Positions 9,531-24,944 of a DNA stretch of 64,000 nucleotides are shown one piece after another (positions within the stretch are counted from its first letter, which is position 1; each line of letters begins with the position of its first letter). A program made the position numbers and the translations under genes. The notes under the pieces were generated by a model, which saw only the letters and a list, made by a program, of their open reading frames with translations, was not told the origin of the DNA and ran no database searches. This stretch comes from Chloroflexota bacterium. GTDB lineage: Bacteria; Chloroflexota; Anaerolineae; Promineifilales; Promineifilaceae. Where the stretch lies: positions 62,001-126,000 of the forward strand of contig JAGOMA010000008.1 in assembly GCA_017993775.1 (NCBI GenBank), written 5' to 3'.

Positions 9531-11360
9531 CTAACTTTGACTATCCCTCGATGGTAGTGGAAGATCAAGCGTTTTATATATTAGCTGTTCACTTTGGGTT
9601 ATTGCCTGCCCAAGTGAATTGTGAAGAGCATAAATCAGTGTTTTGGTGAAATCTTCGCGGAGATGTTCTTTCGTGGTCTGCCCTCCACATGCGATAGCTC
9701 TGTTTAAATAGACGAACAATTTAGCAGCAATCAATTCGTCTTTATCACTGCTACCATGTAGGTGCTGTAACATGGTCATCTTGGTTACTACATATAGACG
9801 AATGCTATCTAGCCACTTTAGATCGCTATCTTTTTCTAGCCCTAGTTGAACTGCTTTTTCCGCACTTTCTGCGTCTCCAACAAGATATTCGCAAGCGGCA
9901 AGCCGGTAATAATTGTACGGGTTCTCTGGAGCCAGCATAGCGCACCTGGCAGCAACCTCTCTCAGCGCGTGATGAGATGGCCGTGTCCTATCTCTCCCGA
10001 TTGCATATAGATAGCCGCTCCCGCCCAAATGACGGGATAGCCATCTACCTGCTAAGTCTAATAAAGCATCTTTGGCTGTGACATATAGTGTTTTTTGCGG
10101 CAACGGAGGCTTGAGATCAAACAAGGTCTGCTGAACAAGATGGGTAATTATCAAGAATTCGTCATTGTTGCCATCTGTATAGATTTCGTCGCGTAAACTT
10201 TGCCCCAAGAAAAAGCGCCTTTTCTTTCTGGCTTGCAGGCCAGATACAAAAGCTAGGAGCAAGGCAATGTAAGCGTCTAAAGGGTCTTCCTGATCGATAA
10301 CCAGTGAAGGACTAATCTGAACGCGGGCAAATGAATGAAATGGATCATTCTGCACCAACTGAGCTAAATCGCGGTTTTTCGTTACGGCAAAGTCTCCATG
10401 ATCGAGTGCATGTTCGAGGTTTAACCATATAAGTGATGAATCGGTGTTAAGGTAACTACCCCAAACAATGGCGTCATACCCTAACCACTTTCTGACAAAT
10501 CGCGCCCGGTTGTTAGTATGAATCTTGATGATAGGTGGAAGTATCTGAAAACGCACTCGACCTGTTGAACGGGCAACGTGCAAGTTAAACCGTAATTGTT
10601 CTATAGCGCTGGCGAAAATTTGCATTGGCGCTTTTATTGCCAGTCGTTCTTCGTTGAATGTGTAGCTGTTCAGAGAAGCTAATCCTATGTACCCTCTCGA
10701 CATCAATGCAGTAACGGCTCTATCGAATGGCCCATCCAATTTATCAATAGGCCATAGCGGATCTAATTTGATGTCCTTGCTCAGTGCCTTTCGGATAGCT
10801 ACTTTAAACTCCAGTCCACTTTCAGCGATTTGGTCTTGGATATCTTTTTGTTTTTCGGGGGGCAACTCCTTGAATTTTTTACTGATCAAATAGTTATGAA
10901 TGGGCTGTAAAATAAAGTAAAAAGGCAAGTAGGCTGCACCGAACAAAACAAACAAAAGCTGCAAAAGAACCAGTGCCAGATTTCGAGCAATTCTTTGAAG
11001 AGGTACTGTGATATAGAGATATAGGCCGCTACTAAGAAACCAGATGAAGGCAATAAGAATGGCGCCAAAGATAAAAACACTTGTCAAACGTACATCTCGA
11101 ATTGCTAACTGTCCGCTTTCTATCCAGGGGATACCGATAATGCGTACAGTGTTTTCTGGACCTAGCCTAGCCAGCAGGACCAGAAAAATGGCCCAACTAA
11201 TTTCTATTAAGATCAGTCCTGTAACCTGATCGCCAACGCGGTAAAAAAGGCGAAGAAAATCAAATGCTTCGCCGGCCCACTTACCGGTAGGTTTATAAGT
11301 TGTTGGTTTTTTTTCATCTGCCGGGCCTGCCGAAGATTCTTTTTTGTCTTGATCTGACAT
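9531..11360 (-). CDS. Four-TM membrane protein with large cytosolic domain, unknown
   Basis: 609 aa. A hydrophilic N-terminus is followed by TM segments at about 48-65, 90-115, 125-150 and possibly 150-165. A cytosolic region of about 430 residues follows, with no motif recognised; helices near the C-terminus (CAMLAPENPYNYYRLAACEYLVGDAESAEKA) look TPR-like. It lies 48 nt downstream of the methyltransferase on the same strand, so it is likely the third gene of the helicase-methyltransferase operon; a membrane effector role is inferred from context only. The gene is AT-rich and has no ACGGCCGT copy. Confidence 0.7.
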   Translation of the reverse strand: MSDQDKKESSAGPADEKKPTTYKPTGKWAGEAFDFLRLFYRVGDQVTGLILIEISWAIFLVLLARLGPENTVRIIGIPWIESGQLAIRDVRLTSVFIFGAILIAFIWFLSSGLYLYITVPLQRIARNLALVLLQLLFVLFGAAYLPFYFILQPIHNYLISKKFKELPPEKQKDIQDQIAESGLEFKVAIRKALSKDIKLDPLWPIDKLDGPFDRAVTALMSRGYIGLASLNSYTFNEERLAIKAPMQIFASAIEQLRFNLHVARSTGRVRFQILPPIIKIHTNNRARFVRKWLGYDAIVWGSYLNTDSSLIWLNLEHALDHGDFAVTKNRDLAQLVQNDPFHSFARVQISPSLVIDQEDPLDAYIALLLAFVSGLQARKKRRFFLGQSLRDEIYTDGNNDEFLIITHLVQQTLFDLKPPLPQKTLYVTAKDALLDLAGRWLSRHLGGSGYLYAIGRDRTRPSHHALREVAARCAMLAPENPYNYYRLAACEYLVGDAESAEKAVQLGLEKDSDLKWLDSIRLYVVTKMTMLQHLHGSSDKDELIAAKLFVYLNRAIACGGQTTKEHLREDFTKTLIYALHNSLGQAITQSEQLIYKTLDLPLPSRDSQS

Positions 11361-11408
11361 TGACTGCCTTATGCTGCTTGAAAGCGTTAGAGAGATGGCG
11401 GAATATGT

Positions 11409-14400
11409 TTACTGTATTGGCCAGCCGCCGTGTTTTTCGATGACCTCATCAATTTCGGCCATGATGCGGATGGTTTCATGGATGGCGGTGACGATTTTGC
11501 AATAGTGGAGGATGTCGGCGTCGGTGAGGGTGCGGCCTTTGCGGTCTTTGAGCCATTTGTGGCACACCTGGTAGCCACCTATATGGAAGTCCCACACCTC
11601 TTCCGGCACGCCAATGAAGCTACTCCTGCCGTTTATGGCTACCCGACCATCCTGCCATGCTTTGTTGGCTGATGGGAATTTTTCAATGACACGGTTGCTG
11701 CCGGTGAACTGCGCCAGACGGGGATAATGCGGCCAACCGGTTGGGGTGTCTGTTTCATCCTCCAAGGAAAACTCTAACAGATGCAGTGTCACCAATTTGC
11801 CCCCAAATTGGGCTAAGGCACGAAATAGCAACAAGTTTGAAGTTAAGGGAATGTACGGGAAGTTAACTTTCAAGGAATCTGCATAAAAGTCACGGAAGGT
11901 TGGACTGTACAATACTGCATAAATGTATTGGAAGACATCTTCTGGGACAATGCCATCAGGGAAAATTAAACCTTTCCTTGGTCTTATTTCCAACTTATTG
12001 AACAAGTCTCTTAAAAAACGTTCTGAAAAGTTCAACGATTGGCTTTCTGAAAATCTAAATACTGTTGAACGATTATTTAGGTAAAGTGGAAAAAGATTTG
12101 TTCCTCGATCATGGGATCCAGTTTTCATTTCAATATAATTTCGAGTGACAAATGCGTGGCAAAAGCTTCCATTTGGTACCTGACGTGTCGTTATCAGACC
12201 AAGATTTTTCTTTCCATCCATGTGATTCATTAAGTCTTCACGTGCAAAATCTATTGCAGCAGGATGATAGAAAATCACACGGTTATCAAATGGCCGATAA
12301 TCTATCCGGCGAAAAAAACTCTCTAAATTTTCGGGTTCTTTTTGCAGGATGTGCCTTGCTTTTACTAATGACCAATCACGGTTATCGCCAGGAAGATATC
12401 TCCCCCCTCGATCATGGCCAAAGAAACTTTCTCTAATTTCTCCAACTGTTTTGTCTGGATCAACAAATTCATGAATCCTATCCTTGAGAACTTTAGGGCT
12501 AAAGTCTATCACAAGGTCATCACGATGAGTTTTAATACCGGTGCTTGTAACCGGCATCGCTTTGGTTAGAAGTGTTAAGTCCTGCAAATCACCAATACTC
12601 TTCTGCGATTGGAAAAAATAATTGGGGGATAACGGATTGCATTTTGTCCAATTAATAGAAGAGAATTTCAATTGATTTAATTGTAGTTGCTTTTCTTCAC
12701 GGGTTCCCCAGATATCAAGGAGTCTCACGTTAGCTTGTTCGTGCATCGTTTTAGTTCCAAGTGTAATCGCAACACCTTGCTGAATATCAAAGACATTTTC
12801 ATTTGCTAAACCTTTTGGTGACGGTTCTTGGATATTGGAATCTCCATGAAGATCTATGATCCAGAGCATATCAAAATTATCTAGGAACACTTTACGTATT
12901 CCACGATGTATCAATCCTGGCAAGTAGCCTCGATTTGTAATCATTCCAAAAACAAAACAGGAGACTAGTTTTGCCGAAGATAGCATTAAGCCCAAAAATT
13001 TAATGTAATCGTCAGAAAGAGGTTGGATGTTCCGCTCATTCCGGACATCAGCTTTGAACGCTTCAACCAATTTTTCTGCGGAAATATTACGGTTTGATGA
13101 TATTTTCGCGTATGGTGGATTTCCAACAATGATTGTGAAATGTGTTTTGTTTTTGACCAGATTAACAGCGTTTGCTTCACGAGCCAGAGCTGGTGAAAAA
13201 CCAGGAAGTTGTGGACTAACATTACTAGCCGGTTCCAGCGCATTGGTCAGGTAAATACGTACACGTTCAGTACTGATAAAGCGATAACCGGTTTCGTACA
13301 GTTTTAACCCCATTTTCATATGGGCAATCGCATAGGGAGCCATCATCAGTTCGTAGCCATACAGTCGGGGCAGCAAATGGTGCGGCACATAGTCGTTCCA
13401 GGCCGCTTTGCGTTGGGCGGCGTTTAGCCCAGCCTTTTGCCATTTGGCTGTCAGTGTTTGGTGAATCACATCCACCACTTCCACCAAAAAGGTGGCTGTA
13501 CCCGTTGCCGGGTCTAAAATCACCACGAATGGGCTGTTGGGGCTTGTACCTTCGGGTATTTTCAGGTCAGGCTGGCGCTGAGCCATTTCGCCCCAGGTCG
13601 TCGTGTCGGCCAGCCCATCGGCCAGGCCAAACTCCGTTTGCAGCAACTCATGAACACTGCGCACAATGTAGCTCACCACCGGTTTGGGCGTGTAAAAGAC
13701 GCCGCGCTGCACTTTAAGCTTTTTATCATAGGCCGCCAGGAAATGTTCGTAAAAATGGATGACCGGGTCTTCTCCCTGGGTCTTGTTGCCAAAGTCACGC
13801 AAAACCGCAGGCAGATCGGTTTCATCACCGCGCAGCAGTTCCACCACATCCTGAATACCTAGCTCGTCAAAATCAATGCCCCCTTTCCTCCCGCCCACCT
13901 TGAGAAAAGTTTGCAGCATTTCCTTTAGAAATGGATTGGTCACAGGCACAATATCGGCAATGTTTTCAGCAATCAGCGCCGTGCCATGCACCCCATCGCT
14001 CATCTCCGTGCGCGAAATGGCTGCCGTCAGTAAGCCATAAGTGATCGTCTGGGCATAAGTGTCGGCAAAGTCTGCTTCACTCAGGTCATGGATCAGCGCA
14101 GTTTGGAACGCCTTGTGCAGCGTACGCAGCGTCCCTTTCTCTGTCTCATGTTCCAACAGCAGCAGGGCGGCATCGCGGATGCGCCGCGCCAGCGCCGCCA
14201 ACGCCTCGGCCAAGGCATCGGCCGTGCGAATGACATGCCCCTGCCTATGGCGGAACGCGCCTGCCCAGTTGGTGCGCCAGGCATATTTATCATTGGGGTC
14301 ATCGGGCCAACTCAGCCTGTCTTTAAGCGTAGCGGCCACATGTTCCAGCTTAAGCGGGGTATCGCCGCCATCCCAACCCAACACACGTAAGGTGGGCAAT

Positions 14401-14819
14401 TCGCCGCCTTCCTGATGGAAATGGGCAAAGGCCAGTTCCCGGTTGTTGGCAGCGCTATTACCAAACGCCGAAATAAAGAGGAGATCCCCCGCAGCCCAGG
14501 CGGCGGCGTCAGCTCGGTTGGCCGATGCGCGTTTCTTTATGACCAGATGGCTCAAGATACGGCGCAGTACCACCACGGGCAGTTTCTTGTTCTCAAACTC
14601 CACAAAGAAAATGCCCCACGGCTGCCCCTGCTGTAACGGCCGCAACTGGTGAATGGTTTTGATTTTGACAGCATCGTCATCCTTCAAGCCCAATTCAGCC
14701 GGGGTGTATTCAAAGGTCAAATCGTCAAAGCCATACTGCTGCAAAGGCCAATCAAGTTCATCTTCCAGGTAAGGGATCAATTGGTCAAAGGATTGAATTT
14801 GGCGTAACGGGTTTGTCAT
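11409..14819 (-). CDS. Type ISP-like N6-adenine DNA methyltransferase
   Basis: 1136 aa. Seen: KVQRGVFYTPKPVVSYIVRS (start of the methylase domain), motif I LDPATGTATF (about 435), motif IV NPPY (about 565), and a C-terminal region with FPDGIVPEDVFQYIYAVLYS and SNLLLFRALAQFGGKLV. This matches the type ISP specificity/C-terminal domain. No nuclease or helicase is fused; those roles are probably supplied by the adjacent PLD-helicase. The start at 14819 has GGAGG upstream inside the end of the helicase gene, 2 nt after its stop, indicating coupling. Codons about 520-1000 (11.8-13.25 kb) are conspicuously AT-rich, suggesting exchange of the target-recognition region. Confidence 0.85.
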   Translation of the reverse strand: MTNPLRQIQSFDQLIPYLEDELDWPLQQYGFDDLTFEYTPAELGLKDDDAVKIKTIHQLRPLQQGQPWGIFFVEFENKKLPVVVLRRILSHLVIKKRASANRADAAAWAAGDLLFISAFGNSAANNRELAFAHFHQEGGELPTLRVLGWDGGDTPLKLEHVAATLKDRLSWPDDPNDKYAWRTNWAGAFRHRQGHVIRTADALAEALAALARRIRDAALLLLEHETEKGTLRTLHKAFQTALIHDLSEADFADTYAQTITYGLLTAAISRTEMSDGVHGTALIAENIADIVPVTNPFLKEMLQTFLKVGGRKGGIDFDELGIQDVVELLRGDETDLPAVLRDFGNKTQGEDPVIHFYEHFLAAYDKKLKVQRGVFYTPKPVVSYIVRSVHELLQTEFGLADGLADTTTWGEMAQRQPDLKIPEGTSPNSPFVVILDPATGTATFLVEVVDVIHQTLTAKWQKAGLNAAQRKAAWNDYVPHHLLPRLYGYELMMAPYAIAHMKMGLKLYETGYRFISTERVRIYLTNALEPASNVSPQLPGFSPALAREANAVNLVKNKTHFTIIVGNPPYAKISSNRNISAEKLVEAFKADVRNERNIQPLSDDYIKFLGLMLSSAKLVSCFVFGMITNRGYLPGLIHRGIRKVFLDNFDMLWIIDLHGDSNIQEPSPKGLANENVFDIQQGVAITLGTKTMHEQANVRLLDIWGTREEKQLQLNQLKFSSINWTKCNPLSPNYFFQSQKSIGDLQDLTLLTKAMPVTSTGIKTHRDDLVIDFSPKVLKDRIHEFVDPDKTVGEIRESFFGHDRGGRYLPGDNRDWSLVKARHILQKEPENLESFFRRIDYRPFDNRVIFYHPAAIDFAREDLMNHMDGKKNLGLITTRQVPNGSFCHAFVTRNYIEMKTGSHDRGTNLFPLYLNNRSTVFRFSESQSLNFSERFLRDLFNKLEIRPRKGLIFPDGIVPEDVFQYIYAVLYSPTFRDFYADSLKVNFPYIPLTSNLLLFRALAQFGGKLVTLHLLEFSLEDETDTPTGWPHYPRLAQFTGSNRVIEKFPSANKAWQDGRVAINGRSSFIGVPEEVWDFHIGGYQVCHKWLKDRKGRTLTDADILHYCKIVTAIHETIRIMAEIDEVIEKHGGWPIQ

Positions 14820-14821
14820 GA

Positions 14822-17800
14822 TTAATTGACCTCCATCCAACATTTCAACACCGGCGTTATGCCTATGGGCGCTTGCAACGGCTTCAAATAATTCGTAACC
14901 ACCTGTTTTTCCGCCTTCTGGCGAATCTCGCTGAGCAAAGCGCGGCCTAAAACACAATGGCGGGGCGTTTTCGGTGTAGAGCGGATAAAACGAGCAATAG
15001 CCGCCGGTTCAGTCAGCACCTGGTCGCCAGCCAGGTCATAACAGGCCCATAAGGTAAACCCGGCCGAATCGCTCCAACGGGGCTGCCCGGACTCCGCTTC
15101 AATCAAATCCGGGTCTGGCCGGGGAATGCGGAAACAAAAGAAAACGGCTTGCGTGCCTGCCTTGGGTGCTGCTTTACCAGAAAAAGTCTTCAAGGGTAGA
15201 TTGGGCAGTGCTGCCGCCAGTTCGGGGTGCGCCTGCACCAAATCGGTGTATTCCAGCCGCAGTTGTTCCACCTCTGACAGCGTCCCATCGAACTGCTCAT
15301 TCAGTTCCTTGATGGGATCGAAAGTATCATCGGGCGTCAACAACTTGCGCCCCTCAATACCTAACGTGCGCGAAATGACCATCGTCTTTTTGGTCACCCG
15401 CTGGAAGAGACGCAGCAGTTCATCTAATTCGTCGGGTGGTAAAAAGTTCCAGAAGGCGATTTGGCCGCGCAGCTTCGCCTGTTCTGGGTGATCAGCAATC
15501 AGCCGCGCTTCCACTGCCGGATTCATGCGGCGGTCTACACGGCCAATACGCTGCATCAGCCGCACCGGATTCCAGTGCAAGTCATAATTAATCATGCGGG
15601 TAGCGTCTTGCAAGTTCAGCCCTTCAGACAGCACGTCGGTGGCAATTAATATGCGGATTTCCTCTTTGTTTTTGGCTGCCAATTGGGCCGAACTGGAGTC
15701 GTTGTAATAAGGGGAAAAGCGGGTGATGACGTCGCTGCGCTGTTTCTGGTTACTGCTGCCATCAATCCGACAAATGCCCGTTAAGCCAGCGCGGGTCAAT
15801 TCCTGTTCCAGATAACGCGCCGTATCAGCAAATTCTGAAAAGAGAATAACCTTCTCTTTTTTCAGCACCGGATCAGTTTTTAGCAGTCTGATTAGTGCCT
15901 TGAGCTTATCATCTTGTTCTGGTTTGACTTTGGCGACTTCGGCCAGAAACTCGGCCAATTGGTCCAGGTCGTCCAGGGTATCGTCAATGATCTCGCCCAC
16001 CTTGAACAGCGCTGGATCCAGGCGTTCAACGGCATTTAAAATATCTTCAGAGAGAAAGTCTTCTACCAAGTCTTCATCGGCGTCATTCGGCCAAAGCTCT
16101 AACTGATGAGCATGAACGTAGCCAATTAACTCAGCATTTTTGATTTTCCACCGCTCCAGGCGGCGTTCGTCATGTTCGGATTCAGCATGAACAGTCACCC
16201 AGGCCAGCAACTTTTGCAGCAGTCGCCAGCAGGAGCCTTCAAAGGCACGGGCGGAGCTTTCAAATCGTTTCAAGAACAGGGTGCGGATGAGAGTAACAAC
16301 CTGTTTCTGCCGCCCTACATCGAATGATTTCAAGGCAGGATGATCGTCTGGTCCCTGCCAGTAAGCCAGAGGGTAGTAAATTCCCAAAACAAAAAGAGGG
16401 CGCTCTTTATTAAAAGCTTTGCGCACACTTTCTAGTAGGTTGCCATATGTCTTGCGTAAATTGTAAGTAGCCACTTGGGGCGGCTGACGTTGTGGGAACA
16501 GGACTGTGGTTGCGCCTTGTTGAAGTTGACTTTGCTTGACGTAGGCACGGCTGCGCTGCACCACCAATGCCTCAAAAGCAGGATCGGTGCGTAATGTTTT
16601 TTCGGCCATCACCAACGCCTCGGTTTCCAAACTAAGCGCTAGCGGCTCACCATTGGCAGGCAGTCCACTGAGAAGGCGTTTTTCGAGCTGGATAAAGTGA
16701 GAGCGCAGATTGTGGATAGGAATATTATGCGTACCTCGGGCAAAATAACCATCATCACCACCGGTAAACAGTTCGATCATGTGGCGGAAATCATGGACAG
16801 AGTTGTTAACAGGTGTGGCGGTAAGCATGAATACTTGCTTGGGACGGCCGTTTTGCAGATATTCTTGCAACAGGCGGTAGCGGGACGGCCGTTTCACCCC
16901 CTCCCCTTTAATGCCCGGATTGCGGAAATGGTGGGCCTCGTCGATGATCACTGCGTCGGCCTGGGCCAGGGTCAGGGCGATGTCGCGGGGCCATTTCCCC
17001 TGCCTCTGCAAATCGGTGTGATTGTAGACAACCAAATTCACAAAGCCGCTGAACACCTCTGGTAGATATTTTTGCAAATCACGTTCCCATACATCTTCGC
17101 GCACTGCTTTTGGGGCGAACAAAACGACCTGTTTGGCATCTTTGAAAACCAGCCGCTCGATGAGCATAAGCCCCACAAAGGTCTTACCCAAGCCAACGCC
17201 ATCACACAAGAATGCGCCGTTGTTACGGCCAGCTAGCATCAACAGGTTACGGTAAGCGTCTTGCTGGTACTTATCGAGCAGGGGGAAAATGCGTGACTTT
17301 TGTTCATCCCAGGCATCCGGCTCTAATTCACGGCCTCGGAAATATTCGTCCAGCGCCTTGAACCAGACTTCAAAGGGCGTGCGCGGTGCGGTATGCCGCT
17401 CCATAGTGCGCAAAATGTCGGCAGTAATATCTTCAGCGTCTTGCCAGTGGCGTTCGTACCAATCCTGCAGCAACTGCACGTCGTTGCCGCGAATTTGAAC
17501 GTTCAGTTCGATGTTGTCTGCCAGACCAGGATAGGTGAAGTTGGAGGAACCAACCAGGGCAAAGGAACCAATGACAGCGGAACGGCCGTGAGTGAGATAG
17601 GCTTTAGCGTGGAACTTATCGTGGCGATAAACACGACATTCAATCTTGCCCGAACGAATAGCTTCGACGATGGCGGGAACACCGGTAAGGAAATCGTTCT
17701 GAATCTTCTCGCTTTCCAGGCTGGCATCAAGGCGCTGGGTGGCTTTTTGCAGCCCTTCGGTGAAGGCGCGTTTGGTGCGGTATGACACCTCGTCTCCCAT

Positions 17801-18001
17801 TAGAATGCGGATGTGGTCCAGCTTTTGCCAATAACCGTCGAGGGCTAAGAGGGAGCCGATCTCAAAGTAGCCAGTAGCAATGTCAATTCGGTGAGCGTAT
17901 TCGGTCCAATCACGTAAATACTGGGCGACTTTCCAGTCTGCATCACTATTATCGACGATAAAGAGGTCTCCACCGGTTCTTGTGAGTTTGGGATTGGTCA
18001 T
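14822..18001 (-). CDS. PLD-family nuclease / SNF2-like helicase fusion (defence)
   Basis: 1059 aa. The N-terminal phospholipase D-like domain holds HDKFHAKAYLTHG and GSFALVGSSNFT (about 125-160). A SNF2/DEAD-type ATPase follows: Walker A GVGLGKT (about 272), DEAH box IIDEAHHFRNP (about 350), TATPVNN, and helicase C motifs LIATDVLSEGLNLQ and RLMQRIGRVDRR (about 785-820). PLD-helicases paired with adenine methylases occur in DISARM-like and type ISP-related restriction systems, so cleavage or translocation on unmodified DNA is likely. The start is taken at the second ATG (18001); the first is 7 codons upstream. It is first gene of the trio. Confidence 0.85.
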   Translation of the reverse strand: MTNPKLTRTGGDLFIVDNSDADWKVAQYLRDWTEYAHRIDIATGYFEIGSLLALDGYWQKLDHIRILMGDEVSYRTKRAFTEGLQKATQRLDASLESEKIQNDFLTGVPAIVEAIRSGKIECRVYRHDKFHAKAYLTHGRSAVIGSFALVGSSNFTYPGLADNIELNVQIRGNDVQLLQDWYERHWQDAEDITADILRTMERHTAPRTPFEVWFKALDEYFRGRELEPDAWDEQKSRIFPLLDKYQQDAYRNLLMLAGRNNGAFLCDGVGLGKTFVGLMLIERLVFKDAKQVVLFAPKAVREDVWERDLQKYLPEVFSGFVNLVVYNHTDLQRQGKWPRDIALTLAQADAVIIDEAHHFRNPGIKGEGVKRPSRYRLLQEYLQNGRPKQVFMLTATPVNNSVHDFRHMIELFTGGDDGYFARGTHNIPIHNLRSHFIQLEKRLLSGLPANGEPLALSLETEALVMAEKTLRTDPAFEALVVQRSRAYVKQSQLQQGATTVLFPQRQPPQVATYNLRKTYGNLLESVRKAFNKERPLFVLGIYYPLAYWQGPDDHPALKSFDVGRQKQVVTLIRTLFLKRFESSARAFEGSCWRLLQKLLAWVTVHAESEHDERRLERWKIKNAELIGYVHAHQLELWPNDADEDLVEDFLSEDILNAVERLDPALFKVGEIIDDTLDDLDQLAEFLAEVAKVKPEQDDKLKALIRLLKTDPVLKKEKVILFSEFADTARYLEQELTRAGLTGICRIDGSSNQKQRSDVITRFSPYYNDSSSAQLAAKNKEEIRILIATDVLSEGLNLQDATRMINYDLHWNPVRLMQRIGRVDRRMNPAVEARLIADHPEQAKLRGQIAFWNFLPPDELDELLRLFQRVTKKTMVISRTLGIEGRKLLTPDDTFDPIKELNEQFDGTLSEVEQLRLEYTDLVQAHPELAAALPNLPLKTFSGKAAPKAGTQAVFFCFRIPRPDPDLIEAESGQPRWSDSAGFTLWACYDLAGDQVLTEPAAIARFIRSTPKTPRHCVLGRALLSEIRQKAEKQVVTNYLKPLQAPIGITPVLKCWMEVN

Positions 18002-18014
18002 AGTGTAATTAAAA

Positions 18015-18159
18015 AAAGCCACCCAAAATGGTTACCTAGAGTGTGTGAGTTCCGGTAACGGCCGTTTCGGGTGGCTTTATAAATTCAATTGTACTGTAAA
18101 TAATTGCTTAGGCACCACTTTCGGTAACCTGGCCGCGTTCCTCTCGATGGAACTCACAC
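18015..18159. promoter_or_regulatory. Inverted repeats upstream of the helicase operon
   Basis: Two nested inverted repeats: AAAGCCACCC (18015-18024) with GGGTGGCTTT (18069-18078), and GTGTGAGTTCC (18043-18053) with GGAACTCACAC (18149-18159). GGTTACC at 18030-18036 also pairs with GGTAACC at 18123-18129. This is the only sizeable non-coding gap before the defence operon, so it is a candidate operator region; no convincing -35/-10 pair was fixed. Confidence 0.45.
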
Positions 18160-18290: not shown

Positions 18291-18995
18291 TTAGAATGCA
18301 ACCTCCGCATGCAGGTCCACACAGATTTTCCCGCGCAGCGTCACCTGCTTCGCCTCGGCCAGCCCCAGCAGCTCCTGGATAACGCCCAACTGCTCGCGCA
18401 GGTCGGTGGGCTGCGCGTGGCCATTGGCGGCAACGGCCGTTGCCGCCACGGCCGTTGCCTGCACCGGCACAACGGCCGTTTCCACCTTCACCGCCGCCCC
18501 AGGCGGCTTAGGCTTCGCGGTTCCTTGCCGACCCTCAGCCAGCCCATACCGCCGAAACTGCGCCCGCAGCGACTGCCACGGCACACCCAGCTCCACGGCC
18601 AGAACTTTCACGCTCTCGCCTTTGACAAACCGACCATGCGCCTCGCGCACGGCCGTTTCCGTTAATTCCACGTTTGTACTCTGTTCTGCCACAATCAACT
18701 CCTTGTCTTTTTCATTTTCCGCCGCGGCCAGCGCCTTCGCTCGCGCACGGGCCGCCAGTTCATTCACCTTTCGCTGTAAATCGGCGTCCAAACGGCCGCT
18801 TTGCTTCTGCCGCTGGCTGCTTATGGCCTGCGGCTTGCGCGGCGGCTGGCTGGCCAACACCGCCTTCAGGTGGGCCACGGCCGCCGGGTCCACCGGGTAC
18901 AGCCTGCCGCCGCCGTGGCTCTCTTCATCACCGCCGGTGCGCAGGGTAAACTCGCGCTGGTTGATGCCCACCACACGGCCGTTTATCAGGGTCAT
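18291..18995 (-). CDS. Early-operon protein with possible helix-turn-helix, unknown
   Basis: 234 aa. Seen: MTLINGRVVGINQREFTLRT at the start, a basic helical middle (RKVNELAARARAKALAAAE), a probable HTH (GESVKVLAVELGVPWQSLRA, about 120-140), then an alanine/valine-rich linker with repeated TAV caused by three ACGGCCGT motifs in about 50 bp. The start at 18995 overlaps the previous stop as ATGA, which rules out the longer reading. It is the last gene of the operon. A DNA-binding role is possible; no family recognised. Confidence 0.65.
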   Translation of the reverse strand: MTLINGRVVGINQREFTLRTGGDEESHGGGRLYPVDPAAVAHLKAVLASQPPRKPQAISSQRQKQSGRLDADLQRKVNELAARARAKALAAAENEKDKELIVAEQSTNVELTETAVREAHGRFVKGESVKVLAVELGVPWQSLRAQFRRYGLAEGRQGTAKPKPPGAAVKVETAVVPVQATAVAATAVAANGHAQPTDLREQLGVIQELLGLAEAKQVTLRGKICVDLHAEVAF

Positions 18996-19582
18996 GGCTG
19001 CGCCTCCAATCCGTGGCGACGGCCGTAGCTCTTCATCCACTGCGTCAGCCATCTGGCCGCCGTGTCTCGGTCAAAGCCGAAGGTCTCCTGCAGATACGGC
19101 CGTGCGCCAAACATATTGGTCACGCCGCTGTCGCGCAGCGTGTCCAGGAAATCAAAGACCTCGTCCTCGTCCCATTCTTCCGGCTCGTCTTCAGTCGCGT
19201 CATCTTCCGAAACGTCAAACGGCCGTGTGTCAATTATCACCATGCGCACCCCCGGATCAGCCTGGGAGAGCATCGCGGTAGCGGTAAGTGGGGTCACTTC
19301 ATCGCCAACGGCGACGATTAGTTTAAAGTCGAAGTAATCAATTTCCGCCGCCAACTCGCCGCCCAGCCGAGTCCAATCAGGCCGGGGCATGAAGATGCGG
19401 CAGCAGTAATCATGATCGGCCGTCGGCGTCATGACAATGTCGGGAATGGGGATGTCCCGTCCCTGGGCGAAGCCGCGCAGGTGTTCCAGGGCGACACGGC
19501 TGCGAGCGCGCACCTGCACCAGGTCATGGTCCTGCGGATGGGCCACCACGCTAAAGAATCCATACTTGGTTACGAGCCACAT
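18992..19582 (-). CDS. Early-operon protein, unknown (acidic)
   Basis: 196 aa. The N-terminal half has short hydrophobic strands (LVTKYGFFSVVAHP, IVMTPTADHDYCCRIFM, FDFKLIVAVGDE). It is followed by an acidic stretch (SEDDATEDEPEEWDEDEVFD) and a C-terminal FGFDRDTAARWLTQWMKSYGR. Not recognised; the alpha/beta feel and acidic loop suggest a small enzyme or inhibitor but nothing more can be said. It overlaps the upstream gene by 13 nt and the downstream gene by 4 nt. AGGAG lies upstream. Confidence 0.65.
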   Translation of the reverse strand: MWLVTKYGFFSVVAHPQDHDLVQVRARSRVALEHLRGFAQGRDIPIPDIVMTPTADHDYCCRIFMPRPDWTRLGGELAAEIDYFDFKLIVAVGDEVTPLTATAMLSQADPGVRMVIIDTRPFDVSEDDATEDEPEEWDEDEVFDFLDTLRDSGVTNMFGARPYLQETFGFDRDTAARWLTQWMKSYGRRHGLEAQP

Positions 19583-19818
19583 AGTGTCAAAATCTCCTCG
19601 TCGTTGTGGGCTTGCAGGGCCGCATCCAACGCATCAATCCGGCGCGCCGTGCGAAGGCAGGCTCGCTCCCACACCTGGTCCGCCCGCTTGTCGAAGGGGG
19701 GGAAATCCTCAAGCCACGCCTCCAGCTCCAGCGCCTCATTGGCCAGCGCGAACAGCCGCTGGATGTGGGCTGGCACGTCCACGGCCGTGCCCTGAAGTAA
19801 ACCATTCACGTCAATCAT
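19570..19818 (-). CDS. Small early-operon protein, unknown
   Basis: 82 aa, mostly helical and acidic (RLFALANEALELEAWLEDFP; RIDALDAALQAHNDEEIL). No family recognised. It overlaps both neighbours (4 nt ATGA upstream, 13 nt downstream), so expression depends on coupled translation. Confidence 0.6.
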   Translation of the reverse strand: MIDVNGLLQGTAVDVPAHIQRLFALANEALELEAWLEDFPPFDKRADQVWERACLRTARRIDALDAALQAHNDEEILTLCGS

Positions 19819-20018
19819 TCCGTTGCCCCACCTGGCCGCAGGAAGCCGATGACTTCCTTCAGCCGCTCTTCCACGTGCGCCAGGTCACCCACGTAGCCCC
19901 AATCTGACGGCCGTTTGGCCTGCTGCTGCCAATGGGCCTCGGCCAGACTGCCTAACTCAACCAGCAGTTGGGCCACGGCCGTTTGTTTTTCCTCGTAGAC
20001 GTCGTTGGCTGCGCTCAT
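19815..20018 (-). CDS. Small early-operon protein, unknown
   Basis: 67 aa, helical (YEEKQTAVAQLLVELGSLAE). The start at 20018 forms an ATGA overlap with the preceding stop and is preferred over the Met two codons earlier. No family recognised. Confidence 0.55.
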   Translation of the reverse strand: MSAANDVYEEKQTAVAQLLVELGSLAEAHWQQQAKRPSDWGYVGDLAHVEERLKEVIGFLRPGGATE

Positions 20019-20512
20019 GGCCAATCCACCCCGCTGTACCCATCATCATCCCGTTCGTAGCCGGCGTACCAGCACGCCTCGCAGTAGTCGCCGCCGCTCA
20101 CGGCGTCCAGTTCCTCAACCGGCGTCAGCTTGCCGCAGCCGGCGCAGACGCGCAGCACCTGGGCCAACTGGGGCACGGCCGTGGGTGACACTGCGTCAGC
20201 CACCGGCGCGTCCAGCACCAGCCAGTAAGCCGGGCCGACCACATGCTGCGTCTCGCCTTCCGTCAGGCGCAGCGCCCCGCATACGTCAAAGAGCAGGCAG
20301 GCGTCGGCGGCCGCCAGGCCATGCTCGTCTGCTTCCAACATCCGCCGCAGGGTGGCCAGCCGCGCCAGGTCCACCGTGCGCAGCATCGCCTTGCCGTCGT
20401 TGTAGGCCATCGACAGCGCCGCTTTCTGGTCACGAGTGGCCAACAGCCAGCCCGCCAGGAAAAGCATCAGCCCTACGGCCGTTATCCCTAAAAGTGCAGT
20501 CGCTAATGTCAT
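20015..20512 (-). CDS. Membrane-anchored protein with C-terminal zinc ribbon
   Basis: 165 aa. One N-terminal TM helix (ALLGITAVGLMLFLAGWLLA) is followed by a helical region (TVDLARLATLRRMLEADEHG). The C-terminal CAGCGKL...DYCEACW treble-clef/ribbon (four cysteines, about 127-150) probably binds Zn. The start at 20512 follows AAGGA at good spacing; the in-frame upstream extension would run through the palindromic repeat. Function unknown. Confidence 0.65.
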   Translation of the reverse strand: MTLATALLGITAVGLMLFLAGWLLATRDQKAALSMAYNDGKAMLRTVDLARLATLRRMLEADEHGLAAADACLLFDVCGALRLTEGETQHVVGPAYWLVLDAPVADAVSPTAVPQLAQVLRVCAGCGKLTPVEELDAVSGGDYCEACWYAGYERDDDGYSGVDWP

Positions 20513-20532
20513 GGTTGGTTCCTTGTTGATGG

Positions 20533-20564
20533 ATGTTGGCGCGCCATGTGTTGGCGCGCCAACA
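20533..20564. repeat. Paired copies of the TTGGCGCGCCAA palindrome
   Basis: A shorter copy (20533-20547, core TGGCGCGCCA) and a full TGTTGGCGCGCCAACA copy (20549-20564) lie almost adjacent in the intergenic space between two early genes. Same core as 2725-2742 and 6822-6837. Confidence 0.75.
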
Positions 20565-20573
20565 TCTGCTTGT

Positions 20574-21239
20574 CTACTCGCCAAAACTGCGCAGAGCGGC
20601 CGTTGCCCACTCCGCGATAAATTCCAGGGCCGCCGCCACCGTGTCGCCGGTACTGCGGTCGAGCAGCCATTTCCGGTACGTGGGGTCGGAGTTGCCTTGC
20701 GCCGCGTTCCGGATGCTGGTCAGTCGCCCTTTCACCGTCTGGCTGCTCACCTCACCCGGCACACCCATCTCGGTCAGCGCCGACAGCGCCGCCATCGCCG
20801 TGGCCTTGGGCGTCGTTTCCGCTTGCCCGGACCAGGAGTTGGTCTGCGACGAGAAAGTGGCGTACGCCGGCCGGTCGGGTGCAGCGAAGTTGCTGCCCTT
20901 CCACCAGAAGCCGCGCAGCCGCATCTGCTCGATGCACGTCGCCATCGCCCGCCAATCGGACGAGAAGCGGGGTACGCCCATGCGGTTGGGGCCATCGCTG
21001 CTGTGGAAGCCGCCCACGTTCCAGGCGGGCATCAGCTTGTGCTCGCCGGGGCCGTCCACCCGCTCGGCCTGGTCGGGGAAGTTGTAGCGCACCCACTGCG
21101 GATCATCGGGCGGCCACATGCCCACCCAATCCCACTGCGGGTCGCGGTACCACTGCCAGCCGAGCAGGAGTTCGGCCAGAGCGGCATCGAATACAAAGCG
21201 GTCGTCGTGGCGCTGCGCGCTTTCTTGCTGCTCGCTCAT
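20574..21239 (-). CDS. Phage ABA-sandwich domain protein
   Basis: 221 aa. Seen: YRDPQWDWVGMWPPDDPQW in the N-terminal half, then VPRFSSDWRAMATCIEQMRL. The latter, strand-helix with S-D-W, is the hallmark of the phage ABA-sandwich domain found in many phage accessory proteins of unknown role. The C-terminus is helical. The start overlaps the previous stop as ATGA, with GGTG upstream. Function unknown. Confidence 0.65.
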   Translation of the reverse strand: MSEQQESAQRHDDRFVFDAALAELLLGWQWYRDPQWDWVGMWPPDDPQWVRYNFPDQAERVDGPGEHKLMPAWNVGGFHSSDGPNRMGVPRFSSDWRAMATCIEQMRLRGFWWKGSNFAAPDRPAYATFSSQTNSWSGQAETTPKATAMAALSALTEMGVPGEVSSQTVKGRLTSIRNAAQGNSDPTYRKWLLDRSTGDTVAAALEFIAEWATAALRSFGE

Positions 21240-21442
21240 GCTTCACCACCGTTCAGCTTCGCTTCGAGAGCCTCAATGCGCGGCAGCAGCTTGTTGACCG
21301 ATTCTTTCACGGCCGCATCAATGATCATGTCGATGATGTTTTCAACTTCCGCCCGGTTATCGCCTTCGAAGTGAAAAGCGCCGTTGGAGGCCAGCCGAAA
21401 ATACCAGACGAGCAGTTCCTTTGCTTTGGCTTCTTTGTTCAT
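21236..21442 (-). CDS. Small helical early-operon protein, unknown
   Basis: 68 aa: KEAKAKELLVWYFRLAS, then a helix DNRAEVENIIDMIIDAAVKE and a coiled-coil-like LLPRIEALEAKL. ATGA overlaps on both sides fix the start at 21442 against a longer arginine-rich reading. No family recognised. Confidence 0.6.
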   Translation of the reverse strand: MNKEAKAKELLVWYFRLASNGAFHFEGDNRAEVENIIDMIIDAAVKESVNKLLPRIEALEAKLNGGEA

Positions 21443-22371
21443 GCGGCCACCCCGTCCACGACCTGGCGAAAGGCCACCAATGCGGCGGATTTGGCCTGCG
21501 CAAACACGGCCGTTCCCGGCTCGCCGGCGGCCTGTAGGTCTGTACGTACAATGACGTACTTCTTCAGGCCGGCCAGGTAAGCGGCGGCCGCGCCGTTCCA
21601 TTCGCCAAACAGGCCGGTGCGCGCTTTCTCGGCGTGGTCGGCCGTCTCGAAGTAGGTGGCATTGCCCACGTACAGACCGCGAGCCACGCAGGTATCAAAG
21701 TCGAATGGGTCGGTGGCTACCCGTGCCCGCTCCAGCCATTCGGCCGGGGTAACGCCCGCCGCGGATTTGGCAGCCGGGGCGTGGATGTTCACGCCGGCTT
21801 CAGCCAGCATCTGGTCGGCGTGGATTTTCTGGTTGGGCGCTAGTGGGCGCTGCGGGCTGCCGTTGGGCGTGGGGCCGCTGGCGGCCTGGCCATTGGCGGC
21901 GGGTTGGGTAACGGCCGTAGGCTGTGGCTGGGCCATCCGCCCCTGGCGCGCCTTCGGGCTGGCCAGGTAGCGCAGGATGAGGGTCTTGGCATTGTTGCCA
22001 TTGTCATCGGTGCGCGGCTGCACCATCAGGCGGAATGGCTGCACGGCCGTTTCGCAGCGGTGGGGTTGGCCGAAGCGGCGCACCAGCGCCGTCTGGCCGT
22101 CGTAAATGGGTAAACTGTCCAAGGCGACGCCGGCATACTTCTCGAAGCGCTGCCGCTGCCAGTCCTCGTCGAGGTACTCGTGGCAGAGCTTCATTTTGCC
22201 GTATGTCCCAAAGGCGTTCCATTCCGGGTAAAAGTCGACGACGTCCACGATACGGCCGTCTTCCGGCGCGACGTGTTGGCGGCGCATCACCGCCGCCACT
22301 TCGTCAATTCTGTAGACGCCCAGGTGAGCGGCTACCAGGTCAAGTTTGTACTCAAGCAAGCTGTCGTTCAT
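21439..22371 (-). CDS. Early-operon protein with P/A/Q-rich linker, unknown
   Basis: 310 aa. The N-terminal domain (about 1-145) contains DVVDFYPEWNAFGTYGKMKL and LPIYDGQTALVRRFGQP. A low-complexity linker follows (QPQPTAVTQPAANGQAASG, about 155-190). The C-terminal domain (about 200-310) contains TPAEWLERARVATDPFDFDT and FGEWNGAAAAYLAGLKKY. A two-domain layout with a flexible linker is common in phage ssDNA-binding or recombination proteins, but no motif supports that. ATG at 22371 with AGAGGGAAC upstream. It is the largest gene of the early operon. Confidence 0.65.
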   Translation of the reverse strand: MNDSLLEYKLDLVAAHLGVYRIDEVAAVMRRQHVAPEDGRIVDVVDFYPEWNAFGTYGKMKLCHEYLDEDWQRQRFEKYAGVALDSLPIYDGQTALVRRFGQPHRCETAVQPFRLMVQPRTDDNGNNAKTLILRYLASPKARQGRMAQPQPTAVTQPAANGQAASGPTPNGSPQRPLAPNQKIHADQMLAEAGVNIHAPAAKSAAGVTPAEWLERARVATDPFDFDTCVARGLYVGNATYFETADHAEKARTGLFGEWNGAAAAYLAGLKKYVIVRTDLQAAGEPGTAVFAQAKSAALVAFRQVVDGVAA

Positions 22372-22386
22372 AGTTCCCTCTTGAAA

Positions 22387-22418
22387 AACGGCCGTTCCGA
22401 CCAATCAGAACGGCCGTT
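22387..22418 (-). terminator. Intra-operon hairpin with U-run
   Basis: Arms AACGGCCGTTC (22387-22397) and GAACGGCCGTT (22408-22418), loop 10 nt; TTTTT follows on the minus strand, 16 nt before the start at 22371. It probably attenuates transcription between the first five and later early genes. Confidence 0.55.
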
Positions 22419-22430
22419 CTAAACATTGTA

Positions 22431-22700
22431 CTAAAGCGCGAGTTTTGCCGTCCACGTCCATTCGCAGGACGCTGGCCCAAAGTCCACACGGCCGGTAACA
22501 TGCTGCTGCGCGTCGGCGTTGGCCTCATAGATGTCCTGGGCGCGCTGCGGGCTGATCCGCTGGGCATTGACGACGCTGCGGCCGTTTTCGCGCCGGTTGT
22601 AAAAGTAGAAATGCTCGTGGCGGACAAGGTCGATTTCCACAACGGCCGTTTCGCTGGGTGCGATGGGCAGGGTGGCGGTTGGCATGGTTACAGTACCCAC
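22431..22700 (-). CDS. Small early-operon protein, unknown
   Basis: 89 aa using GTG at 22700, which has AGAGGTGA at good spacing; an ATG five codons in (22685) lacks a comparable site. Beta-rich with EIDLVRHEHFYFYNRRENGR and DFGPASCEWTWTAKL. It overlaps the upstream gene by 13 nt. No family recognised. Confidence 0.6.
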   Translation of the reverse strand: MGTVTMPTATLPIAPSETAVVEIDLVRHEHFYFYNRRENGRSVVNAQRISPQRAQDIYEANADAQQHVTGRVDFGPASCEWTWTAKLAL

Positions 22701-22951
22701 AGCGTCACCTCTTGGGGCGGCCGGACGATTTCGCCGATGCCGGATTCATCCAGCCAGATGGTCGCGCCGCTGGCGTACTGGCCGCCATAGCGCAGGCTGC
22801 CGCGCTCTTGCTTCACCAGGTAGTCGGCCGCGGCGGCGATGCGCCGGTGGTATTTGTCGGACTGCAGTTCGACTGCAGCAATAGCCTCGGCCGTCTGCAC
22901 GGCCAGGTCGTTGACATGATGTTGGGTGGGGGTTGCGGTTTTGAGAGTCAT
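22688..22951 (-). CDS. Small early-operon protein, unknown
   Basis: 87 aa: helical N-terminus (VQTAEAIAAVELQSDKYHRR), then SLRYGGQYASGATIWLDESG. GAGGTAAACCC precedes the ATG. No family recognised. Confidence 0.6.
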   Translation of the reverse strand: MTLKTATPTQHHVNDLAVQTAEAIAAVELQSDKYHRRIAAAADYLVKQERGSLRYGGQYASGATIWLDESGIGEIVRPPQEVTLWVL

Positions 22952-22955
22952 GGGT

Positions 22956-23513
22956 TTACCTCATCAAGCCAGGCTGTGGCTGCGCATTGCGCCGGGCAAT
23001 CTCTCGGCGCAGGTTACGCGCACTGCGGAACTGGCCCAGGCGTTCTTCTTTTTCCCGGTCGTAGGGTTTGCGATAACCTGCCTGCACCATCCAATCCGCT
23101 GGCGGCTGAAGCGGCGCTTTGTAATCGCCTGCTTCCTTTACACACTGGTCGCGGTCGGCGCAGTCGCCGTCTCTGGCGATAACTTCGAACGGCAGAAATG
23201 TGCGGCCGCAGCGCGGGCACACCTGGCTGGGCTGAGCGAAACGGCTGCCCTGGCGGTTGGCGATGCCGAAACCGTAGAGGGTGGTTTCGCTGCCCTTCTC
23301 GCGCACTTGCACGCCCACCACCGGCCAACCGCCAATAATTTCCAGGCGGATGGACTCGGCCGTGTGGTTGTTCCAGGCGACCAGGTGGGCTTCGGGTTGG
23401 GCGGCGCGAGCGCCGGCCGGTACTTCCACCACCATGTCGATGGCGTGGGTACGGCCGTCGTATTGGGCTTTGGCGAGGATGGTCTCAAATTGGGCCGGGG
23501 TGATGGGGGTCAC
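22956..23513 (-). CDS. Early-operon protein with cysteine cluster, unknown
   Basis: 185 aa from a GTG at 23513 that overlaps the upstream TGA (GTGA) and follows GGAGGT, so the longer reading is unlikely. The N-terminal alpha/beta part (ITPAQFETILAKAQYDGRTH, then AHLVAWNNHTAESIRLEIIG) precedes a zinc-finger-like CPRCGRTFLPFEVI...CADRDQC (about 98-125). The C-terminus is basic (KEERLGQFRSARNLRREIAR). Nucleic acid binding is plausible from the cysteines and basic tail; no family recognised. Confidence 0.65.
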   Translation of the reverse strand: MTPITPAQFETILAKAQYDGRTHAIDMVVEVPAGARAAQPEAHLVAWNNHTAESIRLEIIGGWPVVGVQVREKGSETTLYGFGIANRQGSRFAQPSQVCPRCGRTFLPFEVIARDGDCADRDQCVKEAGDYKAPLQPPADWMVQAGYRKPYDREKEERLGQFRSARNLRREIARRNAQPQPGLMR

Positions 23514-23845
23514 TGGGTCACCTCCACGAGGTGCTGCGCCAGCCCATTCGAGCCGATGAACTCGTAGACCCACCATTTCCGCCCGCCGTCTGTCGCGCCC
23601 CAGCGCTGCAGCCGGTAAACTGTGCGGTACTCGTCGCCGGCCATGCGCATGTCGCGGGCCAGGTCCAGGACCAGGCGGGCGCTGGCCGGGGTAACGTTGC
23701 GCCGACGGCCGTCAATCGTTGCCATCCACTGTTCAGGGTGGAAGCGGCCTTTGGGCCGGTAGGCGATGCGCTCGACGCTGGGGCTTTCGGCCGTTGGGGC
23801 TTTCGGATCAGGTTCCATCTGTGTTACAATTTGCTTAAGTTTCAT
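23510..23845 (-). CDS. Early-operon protein with conserved leader hairpin, unknown
   Basis: 111 aa: a charged N-terminus (MKLKQIVTQMEPDPKAP) then a beta-rich body (GRFHPEQWMATIDGRRRNV, RTVYRLQRWG, KWWVYEFIG). ATG at 23845, with GGAG upstream and a stem-loop (23866-23897) in the leader like that of the preceding gene. Not recognised. Confidence 0.6.
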   Translation of the reverse strand: MKLKQIVTQMEPDPKAPTAESPSVERIAYRPKGRFHPEQWMATIDGRRRNVTPASARLVLDLARDMRMAGDEYRTVYRLQRWGATDGGRKWWVYEFIGSNGLAQHLVEVTQ

Positions 23846-23865
23846 GGGGACTATGTCTCCTTGGT

Positions 23866-23897
23866 GGCCGTCCAACTTTGCGAGAGTTTGGACGGCC
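23866..23897 (-). promoter_or_regulatory. Early-gene leader hairpin, copy 1
   Basis: Arms GGCCGTCCAA and TTGGACGGCC (10 bp) with a 12-nt loop containing TCGCAAAG, placed just before the SD of the 111-aa gene. The loop block and lower stem recur at 24174-24205 before the first operon gene. Confidence 0.6.
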
Positions 23898-23904
23898 TTT
23901 TTGT

Positions 23905-24159
23905 TTAGCTGGCCACGTGTACCGAGTCGGCCAGCATGTCGCCGATGTAAAGTTCCGTTAACGCATCCACTTCATCGCCTTCCCGATCAATCAAAGAAAT
24001 CCAAGTTACCGAGACGACCGGGTCGCCCTGGAGCATCTCGGCATTTCCTTCCCCGAACTGGACCAGGGCAAGGTTCTGGTTTCTGGTGAAAAAGTCCTGG
24101 GTAAGGCTGTTTCCACTCTCTAAAACTGCTATCACTCTGGTCTTAAAATCTTTGTCCAT
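23905..24159 (-). CDS. First gene of the leftward early operon, unknown
   Basis: 84 aa from ATG 24159 (GGAAGGTGCAG upstream). Seen: DKDFKTRVIAVLESGNSLTQ and a beta-rich remainder (NLALVQFGEGNAEMLQGDPV; VTWISLIDREGD). No HTH is evident, so it is not an obvious repressor. It is the first gene after the consensus promoter at 24241-24269 and probably among the earliest expressed. Confidence 0.6.
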   Translation of the reverse strand: MDKDFKTRVIAVLESGNSLTQDFFTRNQNLALVQFGEGNAEMLQGDPVVSVTWISLIDREGDEVDALTELYIGDMLADSVHVAS

Positions 24160-24173
24160 CTGCACCTTCCTTT

Positions 24174-24205
24174 GGCCGTTCGACTTTGCGATGGTCTGGA
24201 CGGCC
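24174..24205 (-). promoter_or_regulatory. Early-gene leader hairpin, copy 2
   Basis: Arms GGCCGT / ACGGCC (6 bp plus partial extension) with the same TCGCAAAG loop block as 23866-23897, directly before the SD of the first early gene. Confidence 0.55.
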
Positions 24206-24240
24206 TTATTGCTGCCGGCTAACCAAAAAATCATACGGGA

Positions 24241-24269
24241 ATTATAATCAACTTGTGAACAAATGTCAA
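24241..24269 (-). promoter_or_regulatory. Leftward early promoter PL, perfect sigma-70 consensus
   Basis: Minus strand -35 TTGACA (24269-24264), 17-nt spacer, -10 TATAAT (24246-24241). The spacer contains TGTTCACAA (plus strand 24253-24261) starting 2 nt after the -35, the same geometry as both rightward promoters. Confidence 0.8.
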
Positions 24270-24275
24270 TAATTG

Positions 24276-24304
24276 TTGACGTATGTTCACAAAGATGATA
24301 CTAT
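24276..24304 (+). promoter_or_regulatory. Rightward promoter PR1 with shared operator
   Basis: -35 TTGACG (24276-24281), 17-nt spacer, -10 TACTAT (24299-24304); TGTTCACAA at 24284-24292. Its -35 lies only 6 bp from that of PL, so the two promoters are back to back. Confidence 0.7.
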
Positions 24305-24310
24305 TCCGGT

Positions 24311-24391
24311 ATGAAATTGAACCAAACGAACGGCACAGAATCGCAACTTGTCATGGCAACTCTTGTTGACAAGTGTTCACAAGGATATTAG
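24311..24391 (+). CDS. Possible 26-codon leader peptide
   Basis: ATG at 24311, about 7 nt after the PR1 -10 box, opens a 26-codon frame that reads through the PR2 operator and stops at 24391 within the PR2 -10 region. No good ribosome binding site; if used it would be nearly leaderless. Low confidence. Confidence 0.2.
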   Translation: MKLNQTNGTESQLVMATLVDKCSQGY

Positions 24392-24394
24392 AAT
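24366..24394 (+). promoter_or_regulatory. Rightward promoter PR2 with shared operator
   Basis: -35 TTGACA (24366-24371), 17-nt spacer, -10 TAGAAT (24389-24394); TGTTCACAA at 24374-24382. Faces the RHH-like gene. Confidence 0.75.
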
Positions 24395-24452: not shown

Positions 24453-24632
24453 GTGCAAAAGAAAAACCGTGAGCGCCTCACGGTTTATCTTGATGAGCAA
24501 CTTTACCAACGCTTTGTAACCGAGGCTGAGGAAAATTATCGTAGCCTAACTGACCACATGAATGCGATTATTGCTGCTCATTTCGAGGCCGTTGACGCGC
24601 AGATTGCCGCCTCGACCAGTAAAAGGGAATGA
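24453..24632 (+). CDS. Small RHH-like DNA-binding protein, candidate switch regulator
   Basis: 59 aa: RERLTVYLDEQLYQRFVTEA then YRSLTDHMNAIIAAHFEA. The pattern of a short strand, helix and helix resembles ribbon-helix-helix (Arc/MetJ-type) repressors, which bind short repeats as dimers. The GTG at 24453 has GGAGGTGG 7 nt upstream and lies past the PR2 start site; the upstream in-frame ATGs overlap or crowd the -10 box and lack an SD. It sits opposite the early operon and is the obvious candidate to bind TGTTCACAA; this link is inferred. Confidence 0.65.
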   Translation: MQKKNRERLTVYLDEQLYQRFVTEAEENYRSLTDHMNAIIAAHFEAVDAQIAASTSKRE

Positions 24633-24811: not shown

Positions 24812-24871
24812 TTAAACGCACCTTATTAACTGAATAACAAGGATTTTTTCAGCCTCGCGGCTACTTTGAAA

Positions 24872-24944
24872 CGGGAGCGACGGGGATCGAACCCGCGATC
24901 TTCGGCTTGACAGGCCGACGTGTTAACCACTACACCACGCCCCC
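24872..24944 (-). tRNA. tRNA-Asp (GTC)
   Basis: The minus strand folds as a cloverleaf: acceptor GGGGGCG pairs with CGCTCCC, D-arm TGTAGTGGTTAACA, anticodon stem TCGGC/GCCGA with loop CTGTCAA (anticodon GTC), T-arm GCGGGTTCGATCCCCGT, discriminator G. CCA is not encoded. The 3' end faces the accessory region on its left, the usual orientation for an integration target. Confidence 0.95.

Follow-up and report, generated by a model that had tools for sequence, protein, structure and literature searches.

A putative RHH repressor with operators in the promoter spacers of a Chloroflexota prophage

Dimers of RHH proteins place a two-stranded sheet into the major groove of DNA and usually bind in pairs. 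In lambda-like heteroimmune phages, the repressor gene and its operators are exchanged together between phages that are otherwise nearly identical. The 55-aa viral RHH protein F55 of SSV1 represses several early promoters as well as its own, and does so via a short repeated site (PMC5569661, PMC9608457). Arc and Mnt of phage P22 are small RHH phage repressors from a region with divergent promoters, and Arc is autoregulatory (PMC2629481). A further case is E. coli RelB on relO, where RHH dimers sit on the same face of the DNA at TTGT...ACAA dyads, with half-sites such as TTGTAATTACAA that are close to the TTGTTCACAA of the locus described here (PMC2812701). In the literature that we searched, no tailed bacterial phage is described with an RHH immunity repressor, and prophage control in the Chloroflexota appears to be little studied. 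Here we describe a promoter region at one end of a Chloroflexota prophage in which a small RHH protein is predicted to act on operators placed within promoter spacers. The window, that is, the whole 64-kb stretch of DNA that was analysed, comprises positions 62001-126000 of contig C14; its features are collected in Table 1.

The prophage and its early operon

The switch region belongs to a complete prophage of 56.9 kb that lies between two copies of an exact 46-bp att repeat in tRNA-Asp, the repeat being located in the 3' half of the tRNA gene. A tyrosine integrase (Pfam Phage_integrase, E=1.9e-11) is encoded just inside attL, and the switch is found just inside attR, at the opposite end. With att repeats, an integrase, and terminase and capsid genes, the element has the features of a temperate tailed prophage; the labels capsid-like and terminase-like reflect context and a reading of the sequence, as neither protein matched Pfam. 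The terminase-like ORF is 58% identical to one in Longilinea, and the capsid-like protein has counterparts, conserved at 49-52%, in other genomes and in a viral contig. Most relatives recognized by their capsid are fragments; one element on a long contig was examined further, that of Longilinea arvoryzae, and it is short and has no early region in common with the window prophage. Since early genes, restriction-type cargo, a methyltransferase, and the terminase-like, capsid-like and further structural-type genes are all encoded on the leftward strand, the promoter PL heads the lytic arm.

According to the preliminary description, PL faces a 13-gene early operon. PL does head a leftward early operon, in which we count 12 clear ORFs from 24234 to 18291. 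The product of early gene 1 is 92% identical in a second prophage of the same genome (the sibling, described below). A search for the early-operon proteins that covered viral contigs and about 400 genomes of the class or phylum recovered them only from these two prophages. Early genes 1 and 2 are each preceded by a hairpin of the GGCCGTCCAAC...GTTTGGACGGCC type. These hairpins, at window positions 23863-23899 and 24173-24207, are similar to each other; that upstream of early gene 1 has an identical sequence in the sibling and has the mosaic break described below at its edge.

Several other genes of the element deserve mention. Between the early and the late genes, positions 9531-18022 of the window hold a PLD-helicase, a Type IIG/ISP restriction-methyltransferase and a 609-aa protein without assignment; the sibling carries other genes at the matching place, and the region looks like a defence hotspot. 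A GmrSD and Schlafen/AlbA_2 fusion protein is encoded in the structural region (L013:12335-14110, minus strand; C14:54335-56110) and is absent from the corresponding DNA of the sibling. The prophage also encodes a sortase (L012:14090-14647, plus strand; Pfam E=3.4e-16) and a protein whose N-terminal domain is HTH_36 and whose C-terminal domain is DnaA_N (L012:10489-11862, plus strand), possibly a replication loader. To the left of attL, a large serine recombinase gene (L012:6359-8254, plus strand) spans the att repeat, which suggests a second element or a remnant in tandem at the same tRNA site.

Table 1. Features of the switch region and its surroundings, in window coordinates.
Feature	Position	Strand	Remarks
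Leftward early operon, PL-driven	18291..24234	-	tightly packed minus-strand ORFs; 83-94% DNA identity in sibling prophage
Early gene 1	23905..24159	-	84 aa from ATG 24159; ORF open to in-frame ATG 24234 just past PL -10 box
Mosaic boundary	about 24207		sibling identity ends; all rightward to prophage end replaced
PL -10 box	24241..24246	-	TATAAT
Operator OL	24253..24261	-	TGTTCACAA, within TTGTTCACAA, in PL spacer
PL -35 box	24264..24269	-	TTGACA
PR1 -35 box	24276..24281	+	TTGACG
Operator OR1	24284..24292	+	TGTTCACAA, in PR1 spacer
PR1 -10 box	24299..24304	+	TACTAT
PR2 -35 box	24366..24371	+	TTGACA
Operator OR2	24374..24382	+	TGTTCACAA, in PR2 spacer
PR2 -10 box	24389..24394	+	TAGAAT
Putative 59-aa RHH-type repressor gene	24453..24632	+	GTG start, GGAGG ribosome site; weak PHROG/Pfam profile matches
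attR	24870..24915		46-bp exact repeat of attL (contig C14:30006-30051), inside tRNA-Asp
tRNA-Asp (GTC)	24872..24944	-	integration target

Three promoters and the RHH gene

The proposal that three promoters carry an identical operator at an identical position is borne out by an exact search: TGTTCACAA occurs exactly three times in the window, against 0.36 matches expected by chance from shuffles, and in PL, PR1 and PR2 alike it begins 2 nt after the -35 box, within a 17-nt spacer. Leftward PL (TTGACA-N17-TATAAT) is a perfect promoter with a consensus score of 12/12, as had been claimed; the rightward promoters PR1 (TTGACG-N17-TACTAT) and PR2 (TTGACA-N17-TAGAAT) score 9/12 and 11/12, respectively. 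PL and PR1 do stand back to back, and 6 bp separate their -35 boxes. The probability that three 17-nt spacers of such base composition share a 9-mer at one offset by chance is about 6e-10 under a formula that assumes their independent origin. With the -35 box added to the 9-mer, the combined word TTGACANNTGTTCACAA has no match at 0-1 mismatch outside these three places in the 6.0-Mb genome. When about 400 kb were scanned blind for neighbouring promoters with a common spacer word of at least 9 bases, the scan yielded the window switch, the switch of the sibling prophage, one pair on contig C14 and one direct repeat in G358. In viral contigs, the exact divergent promoter pattern was absent.

PR1 and PR2 read toward the 59-aa RHH-type gene, whose most likely start is the GTG at 24453 with GGAGG upstream. 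The profile matches of its putative RHH product are weak but consistently of the Arc/TraY type: the Arc-like repressor of PHROG at E=0.002 and, below the cut-off, TraY of Pfam at E=0.009. A single-sequence AlphaFold model of the protein is one long helix, which is uninformative for an obligate dimer. No relatives were found in viral contigs, phage records, genome contigs (close-relative search) or 52 genomes of the family, and sequence searches of the PDB gave no RHH match.

An ATG occurs 6 nt past the -10 box of PL (window 24234, minus strand), of PR1 (24311, plus strand) and of the rightward promoter of the sibling (contig C45 near 125504, minus strand), and because of this spacing the messages from these three promoters may be leaderless. 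The ATG of PL is in frame with early gene 1, that of PR1 opens a 26-codon ORF that ends within PR2, and that of the sibling promoter is in frame with the sibling RHH gene. The geometry of the prophage operators is also encountered at the lexA gene of the host, where the LexA box GAACACCTGTTC (L058, about 1385-1410) lies in the promoter spacer 2 nt after TTGACA.

The sibling prophage

The sibling prophage, with an integrase of its own and an att repeat of 20 bp, extends over C45:125076-144033 and C107:1-40729, two contig segments joined by an exact 127-bp overlap. The capsid-like proteins of the sibling and the window prophage are 97% identical, and the DNA of the two is mostly 90-93% identical. 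The early operon reaches 94% identity over its last 1.86 kb, and 74 of the 74 nt adjoining the switch are identical. Past the mosaic boundary the identity falls to background, from which it does not recover. In the replaced part the sibling has divergent promoters of the same design: the leftward one reads TTGACA-CACAGTGTAACACTGTG-TTATAC and the rightward one TTGACA-CAGTGTAACACTCTGTG-TTATTAT, so that their spacers contain CACAGTGTAACACTGTG or a 16/17 copy of it. There is one rightward promoter in the sibling; PR2 is an extra of the window prophage. The sibling promoters read a 64-aa protein with a Pfam RHH_5 match above the cut-off (E=8.3e-11) and no meaningful similarity to the window RHH protein. 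Its single-sequence AlphaFold model has a strand plus helices and found no fold match in the PDB with Foldseek. In our searches the protein was found only in this genome.

Because the operator and the RHH gene both differ in the sibling while the early operon beside them is kept, the two are, to judge from the aligned sequences, exchanged as one cassette, as in heteroimmune phages. The known carriers of this early operon are the two prophages of this one genome, and the swap is therefore read from a single comparison. The design is conserved, the operator word has changed and so has the repressor gene; at the level of sequence, this links the operator to the RHH gene. Two properties expected of an autoregulated phage immunity repressor are thus present at this locus: the operator and the putative repressor gene change together between related phages, and the same operator stands at the repressor's own promoter and at the early lytic promoter.

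In both prophages the operator can be divided into two short dyads with a spacing of 10 bp. At PR2 these are TGTTGACA-ag-TGTTCACA, with less perfect versions at PL and PR1, and in the sibling CACAGTG-taa-CACTGTG; the first dyad of the window operator overlaps the -35 box and is confounded with the promoter consensus. Such spacing would suit a pair of RHH dimers bound to the same face of the DNA. In an alignment to Arc made by eye, the residues predicted to contact bases are R8/T10/Y12 in the window protein and R9/Y11/T13 in that of the sibling, a difference that would be consistent with the differing operator words. The pair amounts to a natural experiment, with two small proteins and two operators that could be swapped to study immunity specificity and RHH recognition.

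Predicted repression, alternatives and known systems

We consider it probable that the predicted RHH protein is an autoregulated repressor of early promoters and of immunity that binds in promoter spacers. Paired dimers of the protein would occupy the operators between the -35 and -10 boxes and block RNA polymerase at PL, PR1 and PR2. Thereby the protein would shut off PL, the head of the lytic arm, and, at PR1 and PR2, also restrict its own production. Lysogeny would last as long as PL is stably repressed; upon loss of the protein PL would open and lytic growth would start. An incoming phage with matching operators would be blocked by the same protein. That the switch is under one small RHH repressor, as had been suggested, is strongly favoured by the joint replacement in the sibling; we infer that the operators are bound by the RHH protein, that binding means repression and that repression maintains lysogeny. 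Almost as likely as not is the wider reading of a tailed phage lineage in which an RHH mini-protein is the sole immunity repressor, acting on spacer operators, and in which the cassette swap evades cross-immunity and lets two near-identical prophages coexist in one cell.

The main rival reading sees in the RHH protein a Cro/Arc-like modulator that damps early transcription during lytic growth, with lysogeny held by another repressor elsewhere in the prophage. The Xre-type HTH gene of the related Longilinea arvoryzae element agrees with this reading, as does the example of P22 Arc, an autoregulated RHH protein on immI that is not the main prophage repressor (PMC2629481). However, no CI/Xre-type repressor was found among the early-operon and left-arm proteins scanned, whose sole HTH belongs to the replication-type protein with HTH_36 and DnaA_N. 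Moreover, PL stands at the head of the leftward lytic arm, and the swap of the cassette resembles that of an immunity region. We regard such a modulator as unlikely, though it is the strongest of the alternatives.

It is very improbable that TGTTCACAA is the target of a host regulator (LexA or DnaA) or of a different phage protein and that the RHH gene merely adjoins the sites. This reading could draw on the spacer of the host lexA promoter, with its LexA box 2 nt after TTGACA (TTGACAtcGAACACCTGTTC), on the GTTC half contained in the three sites, and on the frequency of TTGTTCACAA, which occurs 16 times in the genome versus 3 times for the reversed control; TTGTTCACA, too, may resemble high-GC DnaA boxes. 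Yet none of the three sites is GAAC-N4-GTTC, and the combination of -35 box and operator is, at 0-1 mismatch, confined to the switch. DnaA or another host factor fits poorly because the sibling, in the same host and with the same early operon, lacks TGTTCACAA altogether. LexA control was considered as a candidate and rejected, as GAACACCTGTTC is present at the host lexA and absent from the switch.

We give even less credence to the RHH gene being the antitoxin of a toxin-antitoxin pair, a TraY-like part of a relaxosome, or an excisionase. RHH folds are common among antitoxins, the weak Pfam match is to TraY, and attR is no more than about 240 bp away from the gene; however, neither prophage has a toxin-sized partner gene beside its RHH gene, which led us to reject a toxin-antitoxin module. 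Terminase-like, capsid-like and integrase genes are present in the element, and no relaxase was seen among the genes scanned. The excision switch considered in the preliminary description finds no footing either, as no copy of the operator is located near either att site or the integrase promoter.

Least credible is that the common word is a relic of promoter duplication without regulatory role: PL and PR1 are alike past the operator too (21 of 46 positions, for example TTCCSGTATGA after the -10 box), and part of this likeness may be an old duplication, but the -35/operator block is identical at 14-15 of 17 positions in every promoter pair versus 15-21 of 46 outside it, and the sibling has retained the design although its word is another, which argues that the sharing is maintained and not just inherited.

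The reading of an RHH repressor that acts on its own and on the early promoters can be set beside the known systems. RelB is an antitoxin with a toxin partner and 12-bp half-sites, a context that is absent at the window switch. Heteroimmune exchange in lambda-like phages differs from the present case in that an RHH mini-protein is found here and no pair of HTH-type CI and Cro. P22 Arc and Mnt are the next closest analogue after F55, and their logic matches in part. Their operators likewise lie in a region with divergent promoters; however, immI controls an antirepressor and is secondary to C2, whereas in the window it is the main early operon itself that the operators would govern. In its logic the window switch comes closest to SSV1 F55, an analogy of working that implies no claim of kinship. 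F55 acts on archaeal TATA/BRE promoters through the tandem site ATAGATAGAGT, whereas the promoters of the window switch are of the sigma-70 type, stand back to back, belong to a tailed prophage and have the operator within the spacer. To call the switch undescribed-looking was therefore too strong, as F55 represses early promoters and its own gene, and Arc and Mnt are RHH repressors. Nearby promoters with a common spacer word beside the gene of an RHH protein of about 60 aa provide a search rule for other prophages. While the logic itself is known from F55 of SSV1 and partly from Arc and Mnt of P22, the novelty of this locus lies in its host lineage, its sequence family and the natural swap of alleles.
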